Part shown: in pieces, positions 8,820-32,602 of the stretch
Layout: the number at the start of each line of letters is the position of its first letter
Position numbering within the stretch: the stretch's first letter is position 1
Assembly (NCBI GenBank): GCA_024684055.1
Contig: JAIKXN010000143.1
Coordinates: 1 to 40,816, forward strand
Source: Lachnospiraceae bacterium
GTDB taxonomy: Bacteria > Bacillota > Clostridia > Lachnospirales > Lachnospiraceae
DNA: 40,816 bases
Direction of reading: 5' to 3'
Notes under the pieces: generated by a model
Databases searched by the model: none
What the model saw: the letters and a program-made list of their open reading frames with translations, nothing else
Told to the model about the DNA's origin: nothing
Position numbers and translations under genes: made by a program

Positions 8820-11036
8820 TTAAACCTCGTAGCCTGCTGCCTTTACCGCTGCCTTAAGCGTTTCTTCGTCAACGCTTCCGTCGGTTTCAACATCTACTTT
8901 CTTTGCCTCCAGATCTGCATTTGCGGATAAAACTCCCGCAACTGCCTTAATGGAATCCTCCACTCTCTTTTTGCAATGTTCGCACATCATTCCTTCAACA
9001 CCAAATGAAATCATCTCTTTAACCTCCGATATAATTTTACAATCACATTGATTTTCGTTCAACTCCAAATGAGACTCTTTTTCTTCTTTCGAAACTTCCA
9101 GGCCCTTATCAAGCCTGACTCCCATAAGCCTTAATGCGTTCAGGCATACACAGATGCTGCTTAAACTCATGCATGCCGCGCCGATCATGGGATTAAGTTT
9201 TAAACCGAATACCGGCAAAAGCGCACCTGCCGCAACAGGTATCATGAGAATATTGTAAAAGAAAGCCCAGAAAAGATTCTCTTTTATGTTAAGGATCGTC
9301 TTTTTCGAAAGCCTTATCGCACGGACAACATCAAGCAGATCGCTGTGCATAAGCACAACATCGCCGCATTCGATGGCGATATCCTTGCCCGCTCCCATTG
9401 CCATTCCGACTTCCGCGGTTGCAAGTGCCGGAGCGTCATTGATGCCGTCGCCGACCATAAGTACTTTTTTGCCCTGACTCTGAAGTTCTTTTACTATATT
9501 TGCTTTGTCATCGGGTTTAAGCTCGTATCTGACAGAGGAAACGCCCGCTTCTTCGGCTATTTTCAAGGCCTTTTCCTTTTTGTCGCCGGTAAGCATTATG
9601 GTTTCAAAACCCATGCCCTTAAGGATTTCCATGGCTTTGGGCGACGTTTTCCTGACTTTATCCTGACGAACCTCGCCTTCAACCGAAACGGTTCCCTCTG
9701 TTACGGTACCGGTCTTGTCAAAAACAATCGTATCAAGGCTTCTTAATCTCTCAAGGCTCTCGGCATTCTTAAAAAGTATACCTTTCTTTGCGCCCACTCC
9801 CATACCCACGGTAATCGCAACCGGAGTCGCAAGTCCCAGAGCGCAGGGGCAGGATATTACGAGCACGCAGATTGCATTTGAAAATGCCGTCTTGAAATCC
9901 TTCGTTGCAAAAATCCATATAACAAACGTGATGATGGCGATGACGATTATCGCAGGAACGAAAACCGCGGAAATCTTATCTGCGAGTCTTGCAATCGGTG
10001 CCTTCGTGGCTCCCGCTTCCTTAGTCATCTTTACTATCTTCATAAGAGTCGAATCTTCTCCGACTCCTTCTGCCTTAACACGCACGTATCCGTCGATGAT
10101 CATGCTTCCGGAGATAACTTCGTCTCCTTCGGCTTTTCTTACGGCTTCGCTCTCGCCCGTTATCGCAGATTCGTCAAAATCCGCTTTTCCGAAAACGACT
10201 TTTCCGTCCACACTCGCCGCCTCGCCTTTTGAAATAAGAATAATATCACCTTTTTTTATTTCTTCCGGTGAAATGGTCTCTTCTGTCTCGCTGCCGTTTT
10301 CATCAGTCTTTATCCTTATTATCTTTTTGGGACACATATCGATAAGTCCGTCGATCGCATCCTTCGTCTTTCTCTTTGATTTCGATTCAAGATATTTTCC
10401 CACGGAAACAAGCGTGAGGATCATTCCCGCCGAATCAAAGTAAAGATTCATCGAATAGTCCATGGCTTTTTCGTGATTTCCGTTTTCAAAGGAAATAAGG
10501 ATCATGAAAAGTCCGAAAAGACTGTATCCGAGTGCACACAAAGATCCGAGTGAAACCAGCACGTCCATATTTGTTCCGCCCGATCTTAACGCTTTAAAAC
10601 CGTTAATATAGAATTTTTTATTCAGTAAAAGTACCGGAATAACAAGAATAAACTGGGTTAACGCATTGGTGGAAACATCCCATTTCGCTCCCATTGCGAT
10701 AACCATAAGGATTATGATAAGGATTACGGAAGCGATAAGTCTCGCCAGTTCCGCTTTATCTTCTTTTTTATCCGCTGCATTTGCAGAATTTCCGGAAACG
10801 CCGCCGTTTTCCTTATTTTCTTTTTCCCCGATAAGACTCGCAAAATATCCTGCCTTATTTACGGCATTTTCTATCATTTCGGGATTTACTGCTTCTTCAT
10901 CAAAATGAACGATCATCATCTCTTCGATCAGATTGACGCTTACTTCCTCAACACCCTGTATTTTTCTGACTGCTCTTTCAACGTTCGCAACACAGTTTGC
11001 ACAGGTCATTCCCCTGACGCTAAAGGTTTTCTTCAT
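8820..11036 (-). CDS. copA: Copper P1B-type ATPase lacking the N (ATP-binding) domain, with HMA domains at both ends
   Basis: A 738-aa copper transporter. An N-terminal HMA domain carries C12 and C15 (GMTCANC). Transmembrane helices, the actuator loop TGES (293-296), the CPC copper site C396-C398, the phosphorylated D440 in DKTGT, TGD (483-485) and GDGINDAP (529-536) are all present. Y594-N595 and M623xxSS mark the Cu+ subgroup. A second HMA domain lies at the C-terminus (about 675-738) with GMMCEHC. Only 43 residues separate D440 from T483, against roughly 150 in normal family members: the N-domain with its SEHPL and GxGxxG motifs is absent, and the sequence goes straight from DKTGTVTEG to a DxVRxTS-like segment. 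The frame is open and the ribosome site (AAGGAGGACTAACCG) is excellent. Whether it can bind ATP normally is doubtful. Confidence 0.93.
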   Translation of the reverse strand: MKKTFSVRGMTCANCVANVERAVRKIQGVEEVSVNLIEEMMIVHFDEEAVNPEMIENAVNKAGYFASLIGEKENKENGGVSGNSANAADKKEDKAELARLIASVILIIILMVIAMGAKWDVSTNALTQFILVIPVLLLNKKFYINGFKALRSGGTNMDVLVSLGSLCALGYSLFGLFMILISFENGNHEKAMDYSMNLYFDSAGMILTLVSVGKYLESKSKRKTKDAIDGLIDMCPKKIIRIKTDENGSETEETISPEEIKKGDIILISKGEAASVDGKVVFGKADFDESAITGESEAVRKAEGDEVISGSMIIDGYVRVKAEGVGEDSTLMKIVKMTKEAGATKAPIARLADKISAVFVPAIIVIAIITFVIWIFATKDFKTAFSNAICVLVISCPCALGLATPVAITVGMGVGAKKGILFKNAESLERLRSLDTIVFDKTGTVTEGTVSVEGEVRQDKVRKTSPKAMEILKGMGFETIMLTGDKKEKALKIAEEAGVSSVRYELKPDDKANIVKELQSQGKKVLMVGDGINDAPALATAEVGMAMGAGKDIAIECGDVVLMHSDLLDVVRAIRLSKKTILNIKENLFWAFFYNILMIPVAAGALLPVFGLKLNPMIGAACMSLSSICVCLNALRLMGVRLDKGLEVSKEEKESHLELNENQCDCKIISEVKEMISFGVEGMMCEHCKKRVEDSIKAVAGVLSANADLEAKKVDVETDGSVDEETLKAAVKAAGYEV

Positions 11037-11056
11037 CGGTTAGTCCTCCTTAACAG

Positions 11057-11184: not shown

Positions 11185-12432
11185 TTATTTGTCTTTATTT
11201 GCATTCGCAAGCAAAAGCTTGATCCTGTTCTGCTGGTTTATTTCGCTCGCACTCGCATCATAGTCGATGGCGATGATATTTACGCCGGGATTTCTTTCCT
11301 TGACGATCTTCATAACTCCCTTTCCGACTATGTGGTTCGGAAGGCATCCGAAAGGCTGCGCACAGATGATATTGTTCGTGCCTTTGTCGATATGCTCGAT
11401 CATCTCGGCTACAAGAAGCCAGCCTTCGCCCATTTTTACCCCAAGGTTTATGTAGGGTTTGGCGAGTTCAACCGTATGTGCAAAGGGTGTGGGCGGTTCG
11501 AAATCGCTCTCTTCCTTTATAACGTTGATGATATCTCTCTGTTTTCCGCTGAAAACCTTATACGCAAGCTTCAGAAGACCGATGCTCTTCTTGTGTGTTC
11601 TGTACATGTCATGCTCGATGATACGTCCGTAAACATAGAAAAGAAGGAAGTCGAGAAGTCCGGCCATAACGGGTGATGCGCCTTCGTCAATAAGGTAGTT
11701 TTCCAGATCTCTGTTTGCAAGCGGCGAGAATTTTACATATATCTCTCCGACGATGCCGACTTTGGTCTTTTCTTCCGTGCTTCTCGGAATCGAAGCGAAG
11801 TCCCTTACAACTTCCCTGTAAGTCTTTTTAATCTTTGAATAAGGAAGGGGACCGCTCTTTCCGAGCTGATCGACAAGTTTCTGCGTCCAGTAATCCGCCT
11901 TCGCTTCGGCATCGCCGCGATGGATTTCCATAGCCTTCGCCTGGTTTGTGAGGATCATGAGAATGTCACCGTAAAGAACCGAGTAAAGCATTCTTCTTAC
12001 CATCGGAGGATTGAGTTTGAAACCTTCGTTTTTCTCCATTCCGACGAAGTTGAGCGATATAACCGGCATGTATCCGTATCCGGCCTTTTTCAGGGCTTTT
12101 CTTATCAGAGATATGTAGTTTGATGCTCTGCATCCGCCGCCTGTCTGCGTAAAGAAAAGGGCTGTTTTGTGCACATCGTATTTGCCGCTCTGCAAAGCGT
12201 TAATAAACTGTCCGACTACCAGAGTTGCCGGGTAACAGGTATCGTTATGCACGTATTTCAAACCGGTTTCGATAACTTCCCTTCCGCTGTTTTCAAGAAG
12301 TTCCGCATCGTATCCGTAAACCCTCATAAGGGATGCAAGCATTTTTAAATGTCGCGGAAGCATTGTCGGAATCAGGATTTTGTAATCCTTTTTCATTTCC
12401 GCGGTAAATTCCACTCTTTCGGAATCGTTCAT
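11185..12432 (-). CDS. 2-hydroxyacyl-CoA dehydratase-related protein, C-terminal part of a split activase-like protein
   Basis: A 415-aa protein matching the C-terminal third of the giant (about 1400-aa) acyl-CoA dehydratase activase-like proteins of Firmicutes (COG3581-like). Cysteine-bearing motifs typical of this part are visible: NDTCYPATL, GGGCRASNY and CAQPFGCLPNH. Its ATG overlaps the TGA of the 984-aa gene by four bases (ATGA), so the pair is translationally coupled. Relatives of the dehydratase component carry Fe-S clusters bound by such cysteines. Function is inferred only: probably a reductase or activator using ATP and Fe-S clusters. The reaction is unknown. Confidence 0.85.
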   Translation of the reverse strand: MNDSERVEFTAEMKKDYKILIPTMLPRHLKMLASLMRVYGYDAELLENSGREVIETGLKYVHNDTCYPATLVVGQFINALQSGKYDVHKTALFFTQTGGGCRASNYISLIRKALKKAGYGYMPVISLNFVGMEKNEGFKLNPPMVRRMLYSVLYGDILMILTNQAKAMEIHRGDAEAKADYWTQKLVDQLGKSGPLPYSKIKKTYREVVRDFASIPRSTEEKTKVGIVGEIYVKFSPLANRDLENYLIDEGASPVMAGLLDFLLFYVYGRIIEHDMYRTHKKSIGLLKLAYKVFSGKQRDIINVIKEESDFEPPTPFAHTVELAKPYINLGVKMGEGWLLVAEMIEHIDKGTNNIICAQPFGCLPNHIVGKGVMKIVKERNPGVNIIAIDYDASASEINQQNRIKLLLANANKDK

Positions 12433-15383
12433 CTATCTTTTCCCTCTCTCATTTCGAGCGCGCCAAGCAGGGATCTTAATCTGATGTTGACGGCCGAAAG
12501 ATTATTAATCTCATCGATTTTGATCTGAGTATAAATTCTGCCTTCTTTTTCCACTATCGATCTTACTTCATCGGTGGTAATGGCATCGATACCGCAACCG
12601 AATGATACGAGCTGCACGAGTTCCATGTCTTTCTGAGTGATGGCATAATGAGCCGCTCTGTAAAGACGCTGGTGGAATGTCCACTGGTTAAGGACATTCG
12701 TGGGAACCTTGCCGATCCTGTTTGCGATCGCCTCTTCGGTAATGACCGCAAAACCGAGGCTGCACGCAAGCAGATCGATTCCGTGGCTTATTTCGGGATC
12801 GATGTGATAAGGTCTTCCGGCAAGTACCATGATCTTTTTGTTTAATTCTCTTGCTCTTTGGATGATTCTTTCAGTCTCTTCGAAAAGCTCTTTTTTGTAC
12901 TGAGCGTACTTTTCGAAGCCCGCGTGAACCGCTTCGAGATAACGCTTTCTGCTGACATTGATCAGATCTTTCGGAAGCGTGATCTCGAGTTCTCTTGCGA
13001 GTTCTTTTTCATCATTGATGTTAAGGAAAGGCGCAAGATATCTGACTTCTTTTAAGATATCCATGTTATCCTTCAGAAGTTCGGGATAATATGCAACAAC
13101 GGGACAGTTGTAATGGTTGTCGCCCGCTTTTTCGTCTATGTTGTAAGTAAGACAGGGAGCAAAGATCGCATCAACCTTGTCTTTTATAAGCATTTCGATG
13201 TGGCCGTGCATAAGCTTTGCCGGGTAGCAGACCGTATCCGAAGGAATGCTGTCCTGTCCGAGAAGATATGTGTCTCTCGATGAAAGTCCGGAAAGTTTCA
13301 CGCTGAAGCCGAGATTTTCGAATATGCCCACCCACAAAGGAGCAAGGTCGTACATTCCGAGCTGAAGCGGCATTCCTATGACTTTCTTTCCTTCTTCGAT
13401 GGGTTTTGCAAGATTCATGAAATACTGTCTCTTGTATTCGTATAAGTTTAATTTCTCGTCAATCTTTCCCTTGGATGTCATCTTTTCGCATCTGTTTCCG
13501 GAAACAAATCTTCCGCCGTCCGAAAAGATGTTTATCGTCAAAGCACAATGGTTGGTACAGCCCTGACATACCGAAGCTTTTGATGTATGCGTGAATGTCT
13601 TTAAGTCTTCGAGTGAAATAAGCGCGGATTCTTCAAGGCCGAGTCCCATAGAATAAATGGCCGCACCGTATGCACCCATAATTCCGGCAATGGCAGGTCT
13701 TACGACATTCTTGCCGATCTCGTTTTCGAAAGCGCGAAGTACGGCATCATTTAAAAACGTACCGCCCTGCACTACGATATGCTCGCCGAGTTCGGTCGGC
13801 GAATTCGCACGGATAACTTTGTAGATTGCATTCTTTATAACCGAAACGGATATTCCGGCGGAAATGTTTTCTACCGAAACACCGTCTTTTTGCGCCTGCT
13901 TGATGGATGAGTTCATGAAAACGGTACATCTTGAACCGAGATCCACCGGCGCATTGCCTTTGAGTCCGAGTTTGGAAAACTCTTTGGAATCGTATCCCAT
14001 GGACTTTGCGAATGTTTCTATAAAAGAACCGCAGCCGGATGAACATGCCTCGTTAAGCATGATGCTGTCGACCGCTTCGTTTTTAATCTTGATACATTTG
14101 ATATCCTGACCGCCGATGTCGAGGATGAAATCCACATTCGGAAGGAACTGCTTCGATGCCATGAAATGTGCCATGGTCTCAACAAGACCTCTGTCCACAT
14201 GAAAGGCATTTAAAATAAGCTGCTCGCCGTAACCTGTTACAGCCGAAGCTTTTATCTTTATCCTGTCGCCGCAAAGGGTTCTTACTTCCGTAAGTTTCTC
14301 TTTTACGACGTCAACGGGATTACCCTTGTTGGAATTGTAGTAATGCCAGAGGATATCCTTTTTGTCGCTTATAAGCACGAGTTTTGTGGTGGTCGAACCA
14401 CAGTCGATACCGAGATATGCGTCGCCGCTGTATTCGTTTATGTCCGCAAATTCAACGGTTTCCTTTGCGTGACGCTCTTTGAATTCAGTGAGTGCGGCTT
14501 CGTTTTCAAAAAGAGGAGGCATGCTCGCAACTTCTCTCTTTGCATTTACCGCTTCTTCTAGTTTCTCTATAAGCTTTTCGTAAGCATAGGTCTTTTCCGC
14601 TTTCTCGGCGAAGATCGAAGCACCGAGTGCAACCGCATAAAGCGAATAATCGGGGAAAAGAGCATTCCCGTCATCAAGCTTCAAAGTTTCCCTGAATGCT
14701 TTTCTTAATCCCTGATTGTAGAAAAGCGGTCCGCCGAGGAACATTACTTTTCCCTTGATCTTTCTTCCCTGAGCAAGTCCCGCGATGGTCTGATTGACAA
14801 CCGCCATGTAAATGCTTGCCGCTATATCGTTCTTTGAAACGCCCTGATTGATAAGGGGCTGAATATCGGTCTTCGCGAAAACACCGCATCTTGAAGCGAT
14901 CGGATAAACCTTTTCGCATTTAAGGCTCATCTCGTCGAGCTCATCCGGCGTAACATTTAAAAGAGACGCCATCTGATCGATGAATGCACCGGTACCGCCT
15001 GCGCAGGTTCCGTTCATTCTTTCGTCAACGCCGCCCTTTAAGAAAATGATCTTGGCATCTTCTCCGCCCAGCTCGATGACCACTTCGGTATCGGGTTCTT
15101 TTTTCTCAACAAGTGCAAAAGTAGCGTAAACTTCCTGAACGAACTGAAGTCTCGCCACCTGTGCCACACCCATTCCGGCGGATCCCGATATTGCGATCCT
15201 GATCTTTTTATCCCGCAAATAAGGCTCTGCTTCCTTTAAAAGGGACAGAGTCTTCTGACGTACCTGAGAATAATGTCTCTCGTATTTTTTGTAAATTACT
15301 TCTTCGCCATCGCGAATTACCAGTTTCGCCGTTGTGGAACCGACGTCCACACCGACTGATATTTCCTTGCCTTTTGTCTGCAT
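12429..15383 (-). CDS. Acyl-CoA dehydratase activase-like protein with two BadF/HgdC ATPase domains
   Basis: A 984-aa protein. It has two tandem ASKHA ATPase domains of the BadF/BcrA/HgdC family: DVGSTTAK at 13-20 and DCGSTTTK at 327-334. Each keeps the two cysteines expected to bind a bridging [4Fe-4S] cluster (C127 and C166 in the first; C447 and C486 in the second). A Cys-rich knot follows (CQGCTNHC near 636, then SGNRC), then a DUF2229-type region (about 665-880) with DTVCYPAKLMHG. Known activases use ATP to drive low-potential electron transfer to 2-hydroxyacyl-CoA dehydratases; these fused versions are uncharacterised. The ATG follows AAGAGAG. It lies 18 nt after the patatin gene and overlaps the 415-aa gene by 4 nt; together they total 1399 aa. 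Confidence 0.88.
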   Translation of the reverse strand: MQTKGKEISVGVDVGSTTAKLVIRDGEEVIYKKYERHYSQVRQKTLSLLKEAEPYLRDKKIRIAISGSAGMGVAQVARLQFVQEVYATFALVEKKEPDTEVVIELGGEDAKIIFLKGGVDERMNGTCAGGTGAFIDQMASLLNVTPDELDEMSLKCEKVYPIASRCGVFAKTDIQPLINQGVSKNDIAASIYMAVVNQTIAGLAQGRKIKGKVMFLGGPLFYNQGLRKAFRETLKLDDGNALFPDYSLYAVALGASIFAEKAEKTYAYEKLIEKLEEAVNAKREVASMPPLFENEAALTEFKERHAKETVEFADINEYSGDAYLGIDCGSTTTKLVLISDKKDILWHYYNSNKGNPVDVVKEKLTEVRTLCGDRIKIKASAVTGYGEQLILNAFHVDRGLVETMAHFMASKQFLPNVDFILDIGGQDIKCIKIKNEAVDSIMLNEACSSGCGSFIETFAKSMGYDSKEFSKLGLKGNAPVDLGSRCTVFMNSSIKQAQKDGVSVENISAGISVSVIKNAIYKVIRANSPTELGEHIVVQGGTFLNDAVLRAFENEIGKNVVRPAIAGIMGAYGAAIYSMGLGLEESALISLEDLKTFTHTSKASVCQGCTNHCALTINIFSDGGRFVSGNRCEKMTSKGKIDEKLNLYEYKRQYFMNLAKPIEEGKKVIGMPLQLGMYDLAPLWVGIFENLGFSVKLSGLSSRDTYLLGQDSIPSDTVCYPAKLMHGHIEMLIKDKVDAIFAPCLTYNIDEKAGDNHYNCPVVAYYPELLKDNMDILKEVRYLAPFLNINDEKELARELEITLPKDLINVSRKRYLEAVHAGFEKYAQYKKELFEETERIIQRARELNKKIMVLAGRPYHIDPEISHGIDLLACSLGFAVITEEAIANRIGKVPTNVLNQWTFHQRLYRAAHYAITQKDMELVQLVSFGCGIDAITTDEVRSIVEKEGRIYTQIKIDEINNLSAVNIRLRSLLGALEMREGKDR

Positions 15384-28822: not shown

Positions 28823-29932
28823 TTAATTTACCCAGTCTCCGTTACCTGCGGGACAATCGGTATTTTTTCTGTTTTCAAAGCCTTCGACGTAGTCCCATCT
28901 CATGGGCATGCCGGCTTCGATATCGCAAAGGGCTTTTCTGCCGAGGATTTCCTCATAGTATTTCGTATGAAGTCCGTATCCCGGCCTTACGGATTTGATG
29001 TTTTCGGCCGTAAAAGTATCTCCGGCCTTTATATCGCTGCTTACAAAAAGACTTCTGGTATGCTCTCTTTCCCTTATCTGTTTTTCGGAAAGTTCGAATC
29101 CGACTTTGCCGAGAGCCTTTTCAACCTGACGAACGCCAGTGCACATTTCCTTAAACTCGGCGGGTTCCATCGAAAATGCGGAATCTGCTCCACCGTCGGC
29201 ACGGCTTAACGTAAAATGCTTTTCTATGAGCTTCGCACCCTTGGCTACCGATGCGATCGCAACCGAAGAGCCCATGGTGTGATCCGAAAGTCCGCTGATG
29301 CAGTCGAATTCTTTTGCAAGATACGGGATCATCTCGAGATTGACCGCTTCAAAAGGCGCGGGATAAGCAGATGTGCATTTAAGTACGATGCAGTCCTCGT
29401 TGCCTTCTTCCTTACATGTATTAAGCGCCAGTTCAATGTCTTCCTTATATGCTATTCCGCTTGCGAAAATGATCGGCTTTTTGAGGCGCGCGATTTTTCT
29501 GATAAGCGGAATGTCTGTAATTTCAAAAGATGCAATCTTGTAGCAGGGAACGTTCAGTTCTTCAAGAAAATCAACCGCCGTAAAATCAAAAGGCGATGAG
29601 AAAAACGAAATACCTATTTTCTTTGCTTCCTTTGCAAGATCCGCCTGCCACTCCCAGGGAGTATACGCTTCTTTGTACAAATCGTAAAGCGTTCTTCCGT
29701 CCCAGAGCGTACCCTGTGTTATCTGAAAATAAGATTTATTGCTGTTTAAAGTTATCGTATCTGCGGTATAAGTCTGGATCTTAATCGCATCCGCACCCGC
29801 TTCTTTGGCCGCATGCATTATTTCGACTGCCCTGTTGTAATCGCCGTTATGATTTGCGGACATTTCCGCTACGATGTACACGGGATTCCCTTCTCCGATT
29901 TTTCTGTTGTCGATTATTATTTCTTTATTCAT
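28823..29932 (-). CDS. pseI: Pseudaminic acid synthase (NeuB family)
   Basis: A 369-aa enzyme that condenses phosphoenolpyruvate with a 6-carbon diacetamido sugar to give the nonulosonic acid. The NeuB-type barrel starts EMSANHNGD (23-31). The stretch LWDGRTLYDLYKEAYTPW (76-93) is diagnostic of PseI rather than sialic or legionaminic acid synthases. KCTSAYPAPFE and SDHTMG follow, and a C-terminal SAF/antifreeze-like domain (about 290-350) is present. I prefer the ATG at 29932 over a TTG at 29938. The only good Shine-Dalgarno (AAGGAG) lies 31 nt upstream beyond a GC hairpin. It sits 12 nt before the transferase gene. Confidence 0.92.
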   Translation of the reverse strand: MNKEIIIDNRKIGEGNPVYIVAEMSANHNGDYNRAVEIMHAAKEAGADAIKIQTYTADTITLNSNKSYFQITQGTLWDGRTLYDLYKEAYTPWEWQADLAKEAKKIGISFFSSPFDFTAVDFLEELNVPCYKIASFEITDIPLIRKIARLKKPIIFASGIAYKEDIELALNTCKEEGNEDCIVLKCTSAYPAPFEAVNLEMIPYLAKEFDCISGLSDHTMGSSVAIASVAKGAKLIEKHFTLSRADGGADSAFSMEPAEFKEMCTGVRQVEKALGKVGFELSEKQIREREHTRSLFVSSDIKAGDTFTAENIKSVRPGYGLHTKYYEEILGRKALCDIEAGMPMRWDYVEGFENRKNTDCPAGNGDWVN

Positions 29933-29999
29933 TCTCAAATGCCGTTCTCAGAGGGCCGGCTTTCTCCTTGTCAGATATATAAGATATATTAAAATTTAG

Positions 30000-30115
30000 C
30001 AGTACTAAATATTCCATGATACCGCCAAGTAAAATATTTCTTCAGTATAATACTTCTTCATGATACCGCATGGTTAGATGTTTTACTTTTCGGCAGTATA
30101 CTTCTTCGTGATACC
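30000..30115. repeat. Three dispersed copies of a 22-28-bp repeat upstream of pseI
   Basis: CAGTA-(variable)-TTC-TGATACC occurs at 30000-30026, 30043-30070 and 30094-30115, starts 43 and 51 bp apart. Each copy holds a small palindrome at the same place (AGTACT, AGTAT-A-ATACT, AGTATACT). AAGTAAAA and TTTTACTT flank the middle copy as an inverted pair. The repeats occupy the 219-bp gap between the HAD gene and pseI, which holds no other gene. Confidence 0.8.
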
Positions 30116-30151
30116 AATCGAATGGTTTGCTTTAAATTTTTAAGCCGGAAT

Positions 30152-30832
30152 TTACATCAGCTGCGTAAGTTTTTCAATCTCAAGATCGGCCTTGTAACCT
30201 TCTGCTGCCGTTTCGTTTTCGAACATGGAACCTTTTCTTTTAATATGTACCGTTTTCATTCCGAGCTTTCTGGCTCCGATGAAATCCTTAAGCGGATTGT
30301 CTCCGATATAAACCGATTCTTCGGGTTTTACTCCGAGTTTTTCGAGGCACATTTCGTAGACTCTCGTATCGGGTTTGCACAAAGGCTTTCCGTTCTCATC
30401 CGTGTAATCATAACTTATTATGACCGCATCCGCAATTTCAAAAAGTCCGAGTCCTTTTACCTTTGAACGCTGAACCTTTGAAAATCCGTCCGTTATGACG
30501 CCGATTTTTAAGCCCGCCGATTTTATTTTTTCGATTAACTCTTTTGTATCGTCGTATAAATCCAGTTTCGTCTCGCAGCTTCTGTAAATATCCACGATTT
30601 TATCGACATCCTCGTCAATCGAAAACTCCTCGCAGAGCATGTTAAACGTGCGTCCCCTGTGACCGCTCTCTATTGAATTCATGCAAAAATCATATATTCT
30701 GTCGGACGGGATGCCGTACTTTTCGGAAAGGTAAAGACTCACATCTTTCATTGCCGCCCTTACGAACTGCTTTTCCTCATAAACGGTATCGTCCACATCG
30801 AAAATATATGCCCTGACACCTTCGGGTTTCAT
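30152..30832 (-). CDS. HAD-superfamily hydrolase (phosphatase-like)
   Basis: A 226-aa HAD-IA hydrolase. The nucleophile motif FDVDDTVYEE gives D12 and D14; motif II is VITDGFS and motif IV is IGDNPLKDFIGAR. Such enzymes remove phosphate from small metabolites. I chose the internal ATG at 30832 because CGAGGACAACAA precedes it; the ATG at 30856 has no ribosome site. It lies between an ATP-grasp enzyme and pseI. PseI-type synthesis needs no phosphatase after condensation, so its substrate in this cluster is unclear. Confidence 0.85.
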   Translation of the reverse strand: MKPEGVRAYIFDVDDTVYEEKQFVRAAMKDVSLYLSEKYGIPSDRIYDFCMNSIESGHRGRTFNMLCEEFSIDEDVDKIVDIYRSCETKLDLYDDTKELIEKIKSAGLKIGVITDGFSKVQRSKVKGLGLFEIADAVIISYDYTDENGKPLCKPDTRVYEMCLEKLGVKPEESVYIGDNPLKDFIGARKLGMKTVHIKRKGSMFENETAAEGYKADLEIEKLTQLM

Positions 30833-30946
30833 TTGTTGTCCTCGTTTTTGATACATCCAGGCAATAATTTATCCTGAACAGACTTCTGTTTTTTTATTTA
30901 CGAACTGCGGATAAAGTATATCCGCCGGGAAAAATTTCTTGATTTT

Positions 30947-31876
30947 CTATCCCTCAGTAAAGAAGGAAGTGTCATACCTCAGCATCGTAAGTTCTTTAAT
31001 CCCGTTCTTTGTAATGCTCCTGCCTTCGAGCATTTCCAAAAGAGCCTTCGCGTAATCGGCGCCTGCCGCAAACGAAAGCGGTACGCCGCCTCCGAATCTC
31101 GGATTGATTTCGAGCATTCTGGCTTCTTTGTCATCCGCAAAACACTGAAGCGTGAACGGTCCTTTAATGCTGCCTTCTTTTTTCAGGGCTTCCATAACTT
31201 TTTTGGAAATATCTATAACCGCTTCGTTTAATTCAACGCGGCTTTTTACAACTTCGCCGCTTTTAACTTCCAGTCTTTCTCTGGGAACTATGTAAATGAC
31301 GTTTCCGTCGTTGTCGCAAAGAACATCCATCGTAAACTCACGTCCCGTAAGTTTTTCCTGAACGATGGGCTCTTCGGTTTTCTTTAATGCGTATTTCAGA
31401 TCCTCGTCATCCGAAGCCTCAAAAACTCCTGCACTGCCCATTCCCTTCGAGGGCTTAACAATTACAGGGAAGGAAATTTCGGATTCTTTTTTAAGATCGT
31501 ATGTCTTCGGTGCGGGAATTTCGTATTTTTCAAAAAAAGCCGCTGTTTTAATTTTGTCCTTGCAGATATCCAGCACATTTTCATCCGACAGTAAAAGATT
31601 TGTACCAAGCGCAGAAAACTTTTCCCTGTTTTTTGCGAGGATATCAAATTCATCCTCCAAAAGCGGAATCAGATAATCAGGCTTTTCTTTTTCGCAGATT
31701 TCAAGAAGCGCAGTTATATAACCGGGATCACTGACTCTGGGTATAAGGCAGAATCCGTCGGTGAAATTCTTTGCAACGTTAAGACTGCTGCAGTCCGCAC
31801 CTATCACTTCAGCCTGAGTTTTAAGATGTGAAATAAGCTCGACCCTTTTTCCTATGGCCGTCATCAAAATCTTCAC
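30947..31876 (-). CDS. ATP-grasp domain protein in the pse cluster
   Basis: A 309-aa ATP-grasp ligase, carbamoyl-phosphate-synthase-like. The N-terminal fold starts KILMTAIGKRVEL. The nucleotide-binding loop is VIVKPSKGMGSAG, with QEKLTGREFTMDVL, and the metal-binding end is MLEINPRFGGGVPLS. ATP-grasp enzymes join a carboxylate to an amine or thiol through an acyl-phosphate. The start is GTG at 31876, supported by AAAGGGAAGCGTAAA and by the usual MKIL beginning of relatives. It is 27 nt after pseF. Its substrate is unknown; modification of the nonulosonic acid or its carrier is a possibility only. Confidence 0.85.
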   Translation of the reverse strand: MKILMTAIGKRVELISHLKTQAEVIGADCSSLNVAKNFTDGFCLIPRVSDPGYITALLEICEKEKPDYLIPLLEDEFDILAKNREKFSALGTNLLLSDENVLDICKDKIKTAAFFEKYEIPAPKTYDLKKESEISFPVIVKPSKGMGSAGVFEASDDEDLKYALKKTEEPIVQEKLTGREFTMDVLCDNDGNVIYIVPRERLEVKSGEVVKSRVELNEAVIDISKKVMEALKKEGSIKGPFTLQCFADDKEARMLEINPRFGGGVPLSFAAGADYAKALLEMLEGRSITKNGIKELTMLRYDTSFFTEG

Positions 31877-31903
31877 TTTACGCTTCCCTTTCCTGTTGCA
31901 TTT

Positions 31904-32602
31904 TTACTGCTTCTTATATTGTAACATATGTTGATATTTTATTTCGGCAATTTTCCAGTCCGATTCGTTGTCAATGTCCTGAACTTCCATTTCATCGATA
32001 ACATAGGGAATTATATCACCGAGCATGAGTTTTTTGTTCTTTTTAAATGTTTCAATTCCGAAGCAGTAGAACTGTCCGACGTCGTGATACTCGCTCTCGA
32101 GATCCTGCGAACGCGAATCCATGAATTCGGGATACTCGAAAACAAGTCTTTCGTTTCTAACAACCAGCGCTCTCTTGGGCGGATATGAAAATGCCACGAC
32201 GGGAATAAGCGAATCCGCTTTGCTCTCGATAAGTCTGTCGAGTGCGTCCTTAATCTTTTCGCTCGTAACAAAGGGAGCGGTCGGATAAATGCATACGCCG
32301 TAATCAAACTTCTCGCCTCTTTTTTCGTACTCTTCGATTACTTCAAGAAGCACGTCGTTCGTGGTCGCAAAATCACCGCTTGTTTTTTCGCTTCTCATAA
32401 AAGGTACTTTTGCGCCGTATTTTCTTGCGATCTCAGCGATCTCCTCATCATCCGTTGAGACCATGACCTCGTCAAAAATGCCCGATTTAACGGCTGCTTC
32501 TATAGAATATGCAACTACGGGTTTCCCGAGAAAGTCCTTGATGTTCTTTCTGGGAATTCTTTTGCTTCCGCCTCTGGCGGTTATGATTGCGATGTTTTTC
32601 AT
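31904..32602 (-). CDS. pseF: Pseudaminic acid cytidylyltransferase
   Basis: A 232-aa nucleotidyltransferase that makes CMP-pseudaminic acid from CTP. The CTP-binding motif is ARGGSKRIPRKN (9-20). STDDEEIAEIA, SGDFATTNDVL, IYPTAPF and RSQDLESEYHDVGQFY are all features of the PseF/NeuA family, and the last is typical of PseF. The ATG follows GAAAGGCATATT. It is the first gene of the run pseF, ATP-grasp, HAD, pseI, transferase. The 156-nt gap upstream separates it from a membrane protein gene. Confidence 0.9.
   Translation of the reverse strand: MKNIAIITARGGSKRIPRKNIKDFLGKPVVAYSIEAAVKSGIFDEVMVSTDDEEIAEIARKYGAKVPFMRSEKTSGDFATTNDVLLEVIEEYEKRGEKFDYGVCIYPTAPFVTSEKIKDALDRLIESKADSLIPVVAFSYPPKRALVVRNERLVFEYPEFMDSRSQDLESEYHDVGQFYCFGIETFKKNKKLMLGDIIPYVIDEMEVQDIDNESDWKIAEIKYQHMLQYKKQ

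Follow-up and report, generated by a model that had tools for sequence, protein, structure and literature searches.

A copper-type P1B ATPase without the nucleotide-binding domain in Lachnospiraceae and Bacteroidota

In the textbook account, P-type ATPases have three cytoplasmic domains, of which the nucleotide-binding domain (N-domain) brings ATP to the catalytic aspartate; this residue, in the phosphorylation domain (P-domain), is the nucleophile of a HAD fold, and the N-domain contributes the grip on ATP. The closest described system to the gene studied here is CopA, the P1B-1 Cu+-ATPase (TIGR01511; 7r0g, 3rfu, 4bbj), in which an N-domain with SEHP and GxGxxG motifs stands between DKTGT and TGD. 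We analyzed a 40,816-nucleotide stretch of a Lachnospiraceae genome (contig JAIKXN010000143.1, assembly GCA_024684055.1), hereafter the window, which carries a CopA-like gene whose product lacks this domain. Some gut and rumen bacteria thus have a copper pump without the usual ATP-holding domain, and something unusual may power it. A literature search for loss of the N-domain, or for a P-domain on its own, found no N-domain-less P-type ATPase, which is weak evidence of absence in that it mostly did not cover subscription papers.

An intact copper ATPase frame with the N-domain missing

The gene occupies positions 8820 to 11036 on the minus strand, as do all parts of it given below. Its open reading frame (ORF) of 738 residues plus stop contains no internal stop codon and is preceded by the ribosome-binding site AAGGAGGA at 11044..11051, so that both the good ribosome site and the absence of stop codons reported in a preliminary description of this locus were borne out. 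The protein scored 498.5 bits against the NCBIfam model TIGR01511, above the cut-off of 397, and every Cu+-ATPase hallmark listed earlier (TGES, CPC, DKTGT, TGD, GDGIND, YN, MxxSS and two HMA domains) was found in it. The phosphorylation site D440 (codon 9717-9719) of DKTGT (9705..9719) is separated from TGD (residues 483-485, codons 9582-9590) by 43 residues, exactly the number counted before, compared with about 143-190 in normal relatives, and the distance from this aspartate to GDGxND is 89 residues compared with 190-236 in canonical relatives. In L046, whose 19-residue spacing arose from a chance SGD, the distance from D to GDG is 196.

The loss runs from hinge to hinge: after DKTGT and a short strand, the chain continues at once with the hinge Asp and then the helix that precedes TGD, and a short loop (residues 446-463, 9648..9701) stands where CopA has ~110 residues of N-domain. 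In the AlphaFold2 (AF2) model, the mean predicted local distance difference test score was 59 for residues 451-460 and 92-96 for residues 461-530. In Pfam, the protein matched E1-E2_ATPase (the A-domain) and HMA (two stretches), whereas its match to the Hydrolase profile was confined to the latter half, positions 96-190 of 191. Thus, of the three cytoplasmic domains of the P-type superfamily, A and P were found and N was absent by both Pfam and AF2, and no N-domain with SEHP and GxGxxG lies between DKTGT and TGD. The protein agrees with most of the definition of CopA but, because it fails the N-domain test, we regard it as a variant and not as an ordinary CopA.

The gap is shared with other members of the window genus. 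The N-domain-less (N-less) form occurs with the identical 43-residue spacing in at least 10 of 31 genomes of the window genus, and the nine copies other than that of the window are 71-80% identical to it (among the matches listed). Metagenome-assembled genomes with this form include RGIG8121 and RGIG8351 from water buffalo rumen, UBA3802, RUG11047 and Tb.RUG.345. An eleventh genome, G008, carries a contig-edge fragment that does not reach the junction; by BLAST it resembles N-less forms at up to 66% and normal CopA at no more than 41%. The canonical rows of this BLAST list included L041, an N-less duplicate of L010, which was kept out of the canonical counts for changed sites. The N-domain loss therefore predates the genus members compared.

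Across eight pairs of N-less genes, the core ratio of nonsynonymous to synonymous substitutions (dN/dS) was 0.020-0.123, similar to that of normal CopA, and the ratios of the A- and P-domains were of the same order as that of the remaining protein. Taken together with the retained sites and the distribution described below, these data indicate that the N-less protein is a conserved, selected copper ATPase, cut hinge to hinge at the N-domain, which replaces normal CopA in its hosts.

Recurrence, origins and replacement of CopA

Further N-less proteins were sought with a profile of the joined region across the junction and with whole-protein searches, almost entirely in genomes of Bacillota and Bacteroidota; the cut-offs used miss weak cases, and all totals of N-less proteins are lower bounds. 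Among 392 genomes of the order, a second Lachnospiraceae genus (g49) has at least two N-less Cu pumps, and in a sample of 378 Bacillota genomes, which did not include the two of g49, the window genome alone passed 1e-20; the N-less form is thus rare in Bacillota. A Bacteroidia family has at least five (at least four of 199 genomes, plus G062). In a second Bacteroidota family, that of G1021, at least 21 of 201 genomes have an N-less Cu pump, and all of their junctions were read; the first search found 16 proteins there (15 of Cu type and one of Zn/Cd type) and the second six more. Segatella hominis HDD12 (Prevotellaceae) carries a copy, WP_218457952.1, on a complete plasmid record, where the label "heavy metal translocating P-type ATPase" hides the class to which it belongs. 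Since this copy nests within the clade of the G1021 family in our tree, we take that family to be Prevotellaceae. In all, Lachnospiraceae and two Bacteroidota families have at least 39 Cu-type N-less proteins, all distinct, in which D and TGD are 37-50 residues apart. Seven other candidates, with match spans that left room for an N-domain loss (G987, G674, G775, G342, G284, G366 and G954), proved to be normal, with 142-152 residues from D to TGD. Queried with the junction, plasmid records gave no spanning match apart from S. hominis, phage records gave no match, and viral contigs gave 12 matches, judged by span only.

In the tree, the Lachnospiraceae and Bacteroidota N-less forms fall on opposite sides of the drawn root, and the normal CopA proteins around each come mainly from the same phylum as the N-less form. 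A single origin in one common N-less clade was rejected by the approximately unbiased test (p=1.9e-5), which carries the model's attraction between long branches, and the starred branches require at least three changes to the N-less state. Constrained clades joining the window genus with g49 (p=0.74), the Bacteroidia family with G1021 (p=0.54) and all 27 Bacteroidota rows (p=0.215) were not rejected. We consider two origins of N-less Cu pumps secure, one in Bacillota and one in Bacteroidota, and further splits are likely, though not proven. The Zn/Cd-type protein, in G1547 (L262 8342-10195, plus strand), is a P1B ATPase of 617 residues with a His-rich N-terminus and 53 residues from D to TGD; it has no N-domain and scored 381.7 bits against TIGR01512 (cut-off 313.5). 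Judged by its subfamily, it evidently represents a separate N-domain loss.

The catalytic apparatus has been retained throughout. In 18 aligned N-less proteins, 29 sites of catalysis, hinge and copper binding were compared; 25 are invariant and the other four vary mildly. All 39 N-less proteins keep DKTGT, MxxSS, P..K-GDGxND, [TS]GE, CPC and YN. The copper sites that define CopA were found in 18 of the 18 aligned rows; in the window protein these are CPC of transmembrane helix 4 (TM4; residues 396-398, 9843..9851), YN of TM5 (residues 594-595, 9252..9257) and MxxSS of TM6 (residues 623-627, which with the preceding C622 span 9156..9173). Its A-domain TGE and P-domain DKTGT, TGD and GDGxND are likewise those of CopA, with TGD replaced by SGD in many relatives. 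The P-domain P..K (residues 508-511, 9504..9515) is invariant, and GDGIND lies at residues 529-534 (9435..9452).

A few sites have changed. Residue 622 directly precedes the TM6 copper Met. Normal proteins have Ala at this site in 164 of 168 cases, whereas none of the 39 N-less proteins does; these have Cys (16), Leu (21) or Phe (2), a change seen in every N-less group. Pro298, after TGES, is lost in 17/18 N-less compared with 0/75 normal rows (aligned counts). SGD stands for TGD in 28 of 39 N-less compared with two of 168 normal proteins, the window protein keeping TGD, and the next residue is Lys or Arg in 32/39 N-less proteins compared with Asn in 126/138 normal ones; in the window, TGDK (residues 483-486) lies at 9579..9590. 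Among 90 columns, five conserved sites changed in Lachnospiraceae and five in Bacteroidota, with an overlap of two (p=0.023). A control canonical clade (L162-164, L167) changed at seven conserved sites, at other positions, and the other eight control clades at none or one. In addition, the A-domain is ~14 residues shorter in all five Bacteroidia N-less proteins (L188-L191, L049), where a landmark distance of 35 residues compares with at least 49 in the 90 normal proteins measured, as if the A-domain had been trimmed along with the N-domain.

The preliminary description had suggested looking for a second full-length copA, and none was seen beside the N-less form in the genomes searched (among the matches listed, as for the counts that follow). 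The 31 genomes of the window genus comprise at least 10 with the N-less form, at least 16 with normal CopA, four with neither and the G008 fragment, and none has both forms. Similarly, the 201 genomes of the G1021 family comprise at least 21 with N-less Cu pumps, at least 66 with normal ones (hand count), 11 with a weaker match only (mostly Zn/Cd-like; that of G1489 is a contig-edge fragment of ambiguous metal type) and 103 with none at the cut-off; again, none has both. By chance, 5.2 and 6.9 genomes, respectively, would be expected to have both (p = 7e-5 and 1.3e-4, indicative values only). S. hominis was represented by its plasmid only, and its chromosome lies outside these counts.

How the pump might be energized

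We consider it an even bet that the N-less protein is a working Cu+ exporter in which D440 is phosphorylated by a small donor or by weakly held ATP. Copper export would still run through the E1/E1P/E2P/E2 cycle, with TGES of the A-domain removing the phosphate as usual. As for the energizing step, we infer that D440, in a HAD pocket left open and without a cap, may take its phosphate directly from acetyl phosphate, pyrophosphate, or ATP weakly held without the N-domain. Fermenters of this kind are expected to have ample acetyl phosphate and pyrophosphate, donors for which the extra positive charge next to TGD would be suitable. A precedent comes from H+,K+-ATPase modified with fluorescein isothiocyanate at the ATP site of its N-domain, which retained 1.7% of its ATPase and 76% of its K+-p-nitrophenyl phosphatase activity and is said to hydrolyze acetyl phosphate (PMC4215238), suggesting that an N-less pump could accept small donors as well. 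That enzyme, however, was chemically modified and still had its N-domain, and ion pumping on these donors does not appear in the available passages of the paper. A stronger version is that P-type pumps can do without an N-domain, several lineages having independently turned their copper pump, and in one case or more a zinc/cadmium pump, into an "A+P" motor that needs no nucleotide and runs on acetyl phosphate or pyrophosphate; this is tentative and somewhat less probable than not. Natural pumps that have shed the N-domain repeatedly, in genomes where no normal CopA was seen, would be evidence that the A- and P-domains can suffice as a motor, and they make it testable whether a P-type pump can use another high-energy phosphate.

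Several observations weigh against a conserved, working copper pump or limit the evidence for it. Long stem branches, of 0.56-1.81 changes per column, lead to the N-less groups, which also fits a changed function, and several dS values exceed 1, making the corresponding dN/dS ratios rough. The p-values for mutual exclusion assume independent genomes, which related genomes are not, and co-occurrence in the G1021 family rests on the matches listed, the weakest of which are incomplete. Lys or Arg after TGD is not universal, since six of 39 N-less proteins keep Asn and one has Gln, and for the change at residue 622 there are three independent pairs, a number with which the sign test cannot reach significance (p=0.25). 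No copper-specific neighbor was recognized from the starts of neighboring ORFs, save an HMA-like protein in G235, and a search of the window for CopY-type boxes gave 0 hits.

ATP might instead remain the fuel and be bound in trans, if a resident Zn/Cd-type P-ATPase lent its N-domain, or some unrelated protein that binds ATP docked on the open P-domain. To look for such an N-domain, we searched 33 N-less genomes with a profile built from 20 normal Cu-type N-domains; the set comprised G1547 and 32 of the 39 genomes that carry an N-less Cu pump (G1451, G1423, G1483, G1544, G1530, G1572 and S. hominis lay outside this search); in the control genomes G004, G011, G182, G857 and G978, it gave E values of 1e-32 to 1e-38. 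In 31 of the 33, the profile matched open frames of 612-755 residues, the size of Zn/Cd-type P-ATPases, many of which also match the pump core, so that a possible donor of the domain is at hand; most genomes have one such frame and G623, G480, G1466 and G1513 two. The second P-ATPase of G1466 (755 residues) has an N-domain, and MxxSS and CPC were not found in it. On the other hand, G1561 has an N-less Cu pump and, like G1547, lacks any match to the N-domain profile, the 33 genomes yielded no free N-domain apart from a marginal match in G193 (E 0.0986, 120-residue frame), no Cu-type N-domain was found by profile in the window genome, and the neighboring genes vary between lineages. We therefore regard binding in trans as quite improbable.

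It is unlikely, though less so than binding in trans, that the protein no longer pumps and serves as a copper sensor, buffer or downhill channel, its phosphorylation motifs being regulatory or unused. The lost ATP-holding domain, the long stem branches and the changed residue adjoining the TM6 copper Met would all suit such a role. It leaves unexplained the strict upkeep of cycle residues across lineages, with phosphorylation motifs kept in 39/39 proteins, and it fits poorly with A- and P-domain dN/dS like that of the rest of the protein and with the lack of a normal CopA alongside. A recent deletion allele or an assembly error can practically be dismissed, even though the window genome is a 264-contig draft and a 7-bp repeat, TCCTGAC, is indeed present near the junction at 9650 and 9661: nine other genus genomes have the exact spacing, and a named strain, S. 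hominis HDD12, carries the form on a replicon that is complete. The repeat had been read as a possible deletion scar; we reject this reading because TCCTGAC is missing at that place in all seven relatives compared (the check covered eight of the 10 genus members, including the window genome) and because such repeats are common by chance, 246 of 1233 132-bp stretches of the window holding a repeated 7-mer at a spacing of 20 or less. Of the three functional options offered in the preliminary description, therefore, a pump that binds ATP differently comes near the reading we favor, a Cu+ exporter phosphorylated at D440, once widened to other phosphoryl donors; the non-pumping sensor or buffer fares poorly; and the recent dead allele is contradicted by the shared form and low dN/dS.

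Genomic surroundings and comparison with known systems

The remaining parts of the protein are an N-terminal HMA domain (residues 2-68, 10833..11033), seen by Pfam HMA, NCBIfam CopZ models (2-64/68) and AF2 secondary structure; the A-domain (residues ~233-345, 10002..10340; Pfam E1-E2_ATPase 250-418), with TGES at 10149-10160; and a C-terminal HMA domain (residues 674-737, 8826..9017; best Pfam HMA stretch 678-737, and AF2). In G007 (L011 / L035, at the contig start), the N-less gene lies near the contig end and has an aberrant N-terminus replacing the first HMA domain. The gene is flanked by the same two gene groups in seven of the 10 genus genomes, a small ORF intervening in some, and lies beside one of these groups in the other three. 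Two genes at 11188-15383 of the window are near the pump in most genus members and presumably resemble a 2-hydroxyglutaryl-CoA dehydratase activator/reductase pair. Beside the N-less pump of G235, a divergent gene (L191 9610-10173, plus strand) encodes a 188-residue protein with an HMA-like start (KNMVCPRCV), possibly a copper-linked regulator. Elsewhere in the window, two genes at 28826-32602, known only as BLAST labels, probably encode, to judge by their relatives, NeuB-type and CMP-sugar synthases for making nonulosonic acids.

Cap-less HAD phosphatases such as KdsC take open-access substrates. Structural matches included a phage KdsC (E 1.2e-4); with its short loop in place of the N-domain, the window protein may resemble these enzymes in having a P-domain-like HAD core that lacks a cap insert at the C1 point. 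Unlike the N-less ATPase, KdsC-type enzymes are soluble and not coupled to a membrane pump. Against 3a1c, a construct of the P- and N-domains of CopA, 154 residues on the P-domain side superpose with a root-mean-square deviation of 1.9, and the N-domain part of this 267-residue chain has no counterpart in the window protein. Compared with CopA itself, then, the N-less form is without the N-domain, has Cys, Leu or Phe in place of Ala before the TM6 Met, and commonly has SGD and a basic residue after the TGD position.
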